Source: Nitrospirota bacterium (lineage in GTDB: Bacteria > Nitrospirota > Nitrospiria > Nitrospirales > UBA8639). Taken from it: DNA of 50,036 bases. Every line of letters starts with the position of its first letter. Positions within the stretch are counted from its first letter, which is position 1. A model generated the notes under the pieces. That model did no database searches, had not been told where the DNA came from, and saw nothing but the letters and a program-made list of their open reading frames with translations. The stretch covers positions 1 to 50,036 of the forward strand of contig JAQBUF010000020.1 in the NCBI GenBank assembly GCA_027623995.1. The letters run 5' to 3'. The position numbers and the translations under genes were made by a program. This document shows, in pieces, positions 14,200 through 15,070 of the stretch.

Positions 14200-14295
14200 C
14201 GTCATCCTCCTTTAGGGATCAATTCCTGCACACAAATATAATAGTCTAAACCTGCCACAGAGGGTTTTTTCAATGCAACCCGGGAATTTCGTGAA

Positions 14296-14335
14296 CAAAG
14301 AGACCACCGCAGGGTTCCTAACGGTGGTCTCTTTG
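14296..14335. terminator. Strong 14-bp hairpin, terminator-like
   Basis: CAAAGAGACCACCG and CGGTGGTCTCTTTG pair perfectly over 14 bases with a 12-base loop. It sits between the zinc-ribbon gene and hicB. No run of T follows on either strand, so it could be a transcript-end stabiliser or attenuator rather than a simple Rho-independent terminator. Confidence 0.6.
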
Positions 14336-14516
14336 CTCAACAAACAAAGCTCATTACTCATGCCAGCCCCCAGTTCCACAGCCCACGTTCCCTTTGCCAT
14401 TATTGGACGGAATGAAAGATTCCGTCCTGCCGACTTCAAGTCTTGCGAGACTAGGGTTGAAAGCGTACTCTTTCTTCAAAACCCTGAAGCACCATTGATC
14501 CAAAAGGGGATACAGG

Positions 14517-14729
14517 ATGAAATCAGACTATACAGCTATCGTGAAACAAGCAGGAGAGTGGTGGATCGGATGGGTGGAAGAAGTACCCGGGGTTAATTGC
14601 CAAGAACCGACACGCGAAGCCCTGATGGAAAGCCTTCGGGTCACACTACGAGAAGCGTTGGAAATCAACCGGCAGGAAGCCTTGGGGGCCGCAGGAGCGG
14701 ATTTTCATGAAGAACTGCTCGCGATATGA
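14517..14729 (+). CDS. hicB: HicB-like antitoxin
   Basis: A 70-residue HicB-family antitoxin: the partial RNase-H-like fold begins DYTAIVKQAGEWWIGWVEEVPGV and continues with the typical helix (REALMESLRVTLREALEI). It lacks a separate C-terminal HTH/RHH domain, as in the short HicB group. AGGGG lies 7 bases before the ATG at 14517. Its stop overlaps the start of the following hicA by 4 bases (ATGA). As the toxin downstream is frameshifted, this antitoxin may now be an orphan. Confidence 0.92.
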   Translation: MKSDYTAIVKQAGEWWIGWVEEVPGVNCQEPTREALMESLRVTLREALEINRQEALGAAGADFHEELLAI

Positions 14730-14918
14730 AGCGACAGACCCTCTTGCGGCACCTTCGTGAGAACGGTTGCGAATTACTCCGTGAAGGAGCTCGGCATTCC
14801 TGGTGGCACCATCCCTCCCTCCCTCAATACACGGTCTGCTATTCCCCGCCATAACGAAATTCAAGACATCTTGGCCAAGATAATTTGTAAAGACCTTGGC
14901 GTGAATCCACCTCAATAA
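14726..14918 (+). pseudogene. hicA: Frameshifted hicA toxin gene
   Basis: Starts ATGAAGCGACAG overlapping the hicB stop. The first frame gives KRQTLLRHLRENGCELLREG followed by ARHSWW, the canonical HicA double-stranded RNA-binding-like fold with its catalytic His, and then runs into a TAA at 14852 after 42 codons. A second frame from the same point gives NTRSAIPRHNEIQDILAK followed by IICKDLG, the expected C-terminal half, ending at 14916-14918. The break falls in three tandem CCCT units (14813-14824); removing one 4-base unit joins the frames into a normal HicA of about 62 residues. HicA cleaves mRNA; as read here it is inactive. Confidence 0.9.
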
Positions 14919-15070
14919 CTACCTCCTTTTTGGGAATTAATTTATGCAGGGTTTCGCCCCTGCAATTTTAAATGTAGAAGGAAAACTCAGTGTGGTGATT
15001 GGAGAAGCGTAGGAAGGGAAAACATCTTTCTTTTTTTCGGATCACACATCACGCTTTACGCCTCACGACT

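Follow-up and report, generated by a model that had tools for sequence, protein, structure and literature searches.

Does the toxin gene hicA, which is broken at a short CCCT repeat, represent a reversible genetic switch or a gene in decay? The initial annotation had allowed both readings. The window, i.e. the whole stretch of DNA that was analysed, is a single contig of 50,036 bases from a draft genome of 3.13 Mb in 110 contigs.

The hicBA genes and the break in hicA

Five features describe the two genes and the lesions in the second one:

14517–14729 (+), hicB-type antitoxin gene, 70 aa, intact (open frame; relatives; fold model)
14726–14854 (+), hicA in the frame as started, with residues 1–32 normal, then out of frame, and a stop at 14852–14854
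14813–14825 (+), CCCTCCCTCCCTC tract with the 4-nt excess over the fixed spacing of the relatives (sequence, spacing, genome-wide counts)
14826–14918 (+), C-terminal half of hicA, comprising the final strand and helix of the domain, shifted to the +1 frame, where it is open
14880–14882 (+), ATA (Ile) codon replacing a Lys that is present in 70 of 70 distinct intact relatives

The open frame of hicB and its gap-free, colinear alignment with 31 relatives (60–73% identity) confirm the earlier description of this gene as intact. The hicB stop and the hicA start at 14726 overlap in ATGA. The HicB model had a pLDDT of 95, and its best Foldseek matches were HicB N-terminal domains (e.g. 6g1c, 6u0i and 6hpb), with weak E values above 0.05 and probabilities of 0.97–1.0. 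Pfam gave matches below the cut-off only. As modelled, the protein has the HicB fold (a partial RNase H) and lies next to hicA, the combination by which the antitoxin is recognized.

The start of hicA is normal (MKRQTLLRHLRENGCELLREGARHSWWHHPSL), and the frame from the ATG at 14726 encodes 42 aa, ending in ...ARHSWWHHPSLPQYTVCYSPP with the stop at 14854. The +1 frame encodes the remaining HicA domain, ...NTRSAIPRHNEIQDILAKIICKDLGVNPPQ, up to 14918. An intact relative (L002) aligned in two frames, with window residues 1–32 in one (84% identity) and the remainder in another. H24 of the window corresponds to the conserved His of REGxxHS, which all 70 relatives share. The started frame matched PF07927 (HicA_toxin) at 18.9 bits (E = 0.0016), below the cut-off of 27, while 21 of the 21 intact relatives scanned matched this family (32.8 for the lead sequence). 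Hence, judged by its sequence, the window hicA is a broken member of the HicA toxin family rather than a working one. The PF07927 matches of the intact relatives, the HicB fold matches and the overlap of the two genes all bear out the original identification of the pair as hicA and hicB.

A model of an intact HicA relative (pLDDT 76) showed the order helix, strand, strand, helix, with a strand at residues 35–38 and a helix at residues 46–55; the break lies N-terminal to both. Truncation at this point should abolish the HicA domain, so that no working mRNA interferase would be expected; with the domain lost from residue 33 on, HicA is predicted to be inactive. A phmmer search of PDB sequences with the intact relative returned nothing, its model was too uncertain for fold matches, and the NCBIfam search gave no match. 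Six other HicA-family copies in the genome are distant and uninformative on the CCCT tract.

Loci with a hicB at least 54% identical were collected from whole genomes of relatives and from named genome contigs; the nearest named relatives at the locus include Nitrospira and Nitrospirales metagenome-assembled genomes, so that the window probably derives from a member of the order Nitrospirales. The span HSWW..SA[V/I], which crosses the break, measured exactly 15 codons in 81 of the 82 relatives, the sole exception (L114) having two additional codons in frame. Given this fixed spacing, the window is 4 nt too long. Together with the two-frame alignment to L002, this excess corroborates the frame break that had been placed at the CCCT tract.

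The tract, flanked by CAT and AATACA, is 13 nt or 3.25 units long. It was absent at the break position from every relative in the 82 loci compared, so the locus does not conserve it; in the Nitrospira copies, the same residues (HHPSLNTRSA) are specified by CCTTCTCTG or CCCTTCTCTG. A count of CCCT units in related strains had been proposed. As none of the relatives has the tract, this count yielded no two-unit allele, and we infer a parent allele with one CCCT unit fewer from the spacing.

By itself, the tract is unremarkable, because the 50-kb window contains this single tetranucleotide run of 12 nt or longer, against 0.8 such runs (0.27 of at least 13 nt) expected in a first-order Markov sequence of equal length. 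The real feature is the frame break inside a conserved gene. Genome-wide repeat statistics, calculated as pattern counts, gave two CCCTCCCTCCCT sites in the whole genome against one in the reversed control, and no CCCTCCCTCCCTCCC in the whole genome. Nothing suggests a class of contingency repeats in this genome.

hicA lesions beside retained hicB

Removal of one 4-nt unit had been described as restoring a complete HicA. The two halves are indeed open in their two frames, but the joined product would still carry Ile in place of the invariant Lys at residue 51 (alignment column 53, owing to two gap columns). Just 3 of the 70 intact relatives have a private change at any position that is invariant in the others. 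The substitution suggests relaxed selection on the toxin, as far as sequence comparison can indicate, although Ile may be tolerated at this residue, because distant HicA homologues also have Q, N or E there. At another locus (L007, G020:C1), an open hicA frame has Trp26Arg and Pro39Gln, both private changes of residues that are otherwise invariant, and the gene may be starting to decay.

Decay of the whole 3' half was considered as proof of age and dropped, since its divergence fell within the normal range: the difference between the 5' and 3' halves was as large or larger in 11 of the 70 intact copies. With the 3' half not unusually diverged, the case for relaxed selection comes down to a single additional lesion. 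Moreover, the frame break looks recent, because the displaced 3' half is open and, apart from the Lys-to-Ile change, shows about the conservation seen in intact genes.

Once the window, three duplicates and two loci at contig ends had been set aside, 89 loci could be scored for loss of hicA. A full-length hicA frame was found in 70 loci, two of which (L012, L086) had altered C-termini, whereas 19 had no normal hicA beside hicB (at least 54% identity) as a result of frameshift, nonsense, truncation, interruption or absence of the gene. Some of these 19 could be draft-genome errors. Decay of hicA beside a retained hicB nevertheless appears to be common in the subfamily, at about a fifth of the hicB copies. 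In L012, hicA continues into unrelated sequence; this locus belongs to a series (L010–L015; genus g4, same family) in which, in several species, the hicA expected after a hicB-type gene is frameshifted, truncated or missing.

Two Nitrospira loci carry different stops in hicA, at codon 51 (L038:4001–4400) and codon 27 (L039:4001–4400); the former is the same position as the Lys-to-Ile residue of the window. The hicB genes of these two loci are separated by 10 codon changes, all synonymous, and encode identical proteins, whereas the hicA genes show 9 synonymous and 6 non-synonymous changes, the two stops included. This pattern is consistent with a decaying toxin and purifying selection on the antitoxin, although the stops may simply be recent.

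Origin of the cassette and explanations of the break

Two further features concern the surroundings of the genes:

14341–14944 (no strand assigned; ends approximate), lineage-specific segment of about 600 bp that carries hicBA (alignments with G001 and G002)
14945–14964 (+), terminator-like hairpin 3' of hicA (one found against 1.2 expected in shuffled sequence)

The cassette is flanked by xerC and a small zinc-ribbon gene. XerC and the genes across hicBA are syntenic in congener G001 and partly so in congener G002, where the contig is short. The segment at about 14341–14944 is missing from the same site in both, the only congeners available, and hicBA is therefore lineage-specific at this site. 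The difference could reflect gain here or loss elsewhere. Gain is favoured, since similar hicB genes are distributed widely but patchily across phyla. A search for a target-site duplication at the segment turned up no clear case. A sequence similar to the hairpin occurs in G002. Directly left of the insert, at 14287–14344, lies a 23-nt inverted repeat (87% complementary, 12-nt loop) that is partly conserved in G002, and at about 3200–3400 of L132 (G002:C249) a tandem repeat of about 20 bp (TTTCAATCTTTCCTTGTCA) occupies the xerC-side intergenic spot that corresponds to hicBA in the window.

We consider a recent hicA pseudogene, formed by a 4-nt slippage duplication in an acquired hicBA cassette, to be the best explanation, with a probability of roughly 70%. 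In this scenario, the toxin–antitoxin cassette would have been acquired horizontally between xerC and the zinc-ribbon gene, and a 4-nt unit would then have been duplicated within a short CCCTCCC repeat at hicA codons 30–32. The 4-nt excess itself is observed; replication slippage is its probable cause. The duplication would remove the last strand and helix of the HicA domain and leave no working mRNA interferase. The retention of hicB may reflect a recent loss of hicA or a continuing use for HicB.

An error of sequencing, assembly or strain mixing, in which the additional 4 nt would be an artefact and the true genome would have hicA in frame, seems unlikely. The genome is a draft in 110 contigs and the remaining hicA frame is intact to its natural end, as an error would predict. 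However, short-read errors do not usually take the form of a clean 4-nt gain within a 13-nt tract, and the Lys-to-Ile change is independent of this gain.

Phase variation, by which reversible gain and loss of CCCT units would switch HicA on and off, is improbable. A tandem tetranucleotide tract does sit at the frame break, and the on-state would be survivable because hicB is intact. Yet the tract is absent from all relatives, whereas a contingency locus would be expected to conserve it; it has just 3.25 units in a genome without a class of CCCT tracts; hicA carries an additional substitution at an invariant residue; and unit-number variation was observed nowhere, the window being the sole locus with the tract. 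A viral-contig scan for the tract site found nothing, and titles and abstracts on hicA and phase variation, or on phase-variable toxins of toxin–antitoxin systems, offered no clear precedent. A switch is conceivable, because the short icaC tetranucleotide tract reversibly gains and loses units at low frequency (PMC4117637). Its elaboration, in which slippage would maintain a mixture of armed and disarmed cells with constantly made antitoxin, is similarly improbable. Hence, of the two initial readings, decay is supported by the substitution at an invariant residue, the recurrent loss of hicA beside hicB and the lack of a conserved tract, while the switch is unsupported.

It is very improbable that +1 ribosomal frameshifting at the CCC-U sequences of the tract yields some full-length HicA: the shift needed is +1 and codons in a CCC-U context are known to be prone to slippage, but the product would gain one residue in a linker of fixed length, and neither the site nor a frame break at that place occurs in any relative.

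Comparison with known systems

The locus resembles HicAB type II toxin–antitoxin systems (PF07927 HicA with a partial-RNase-H HicB) in its two short overlapping genes, the HicA motifs including the His of REGxxHS, the HicB fold, and the scattered, mobile distribution. It differs from them in that the antitoxin gene comes first, the HicB protein, at 70 aa, lacks a DNA-binding domain, and hicA is broken.

Many solo toxins and antitoxins have been reported and are regarded as derivatives of full systems (PMC2701414). With its toxin lost and its antitoxin kept, the locus is qualitatively no different from these solitary or decayed loci; what is particular to it is that the lesion arose where a short repeat gained 4 nt. 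Read as ordinary toxin–antitoxin decay, it is a clean small case of an antitoxin retained and a toxin lost, of modest value for the pattern of hicB retention. The wider comparison, in which about a fifth of the subfamily hicB copies have no normal hicA, is more useful. Because the HicB protein is unchanged between two loci with different hicA stops (L038 and L039), selection for orphan HicB becomes testable.

As in Staphylococcus aureus icaC, the gain of one unit in a short tetranucleotide repeat truncates the protein (PMC4117637). Variant icaC isolates have 4–6 tetranucleotide repeats, and a gained unit is lost about once in 45,000 divisions (PMC4117637). Reversion and variation among isolates have thus been shown for icaC but neither for hicA, and the hicA repeat, unlike that of a contingency locus, is not conserved.
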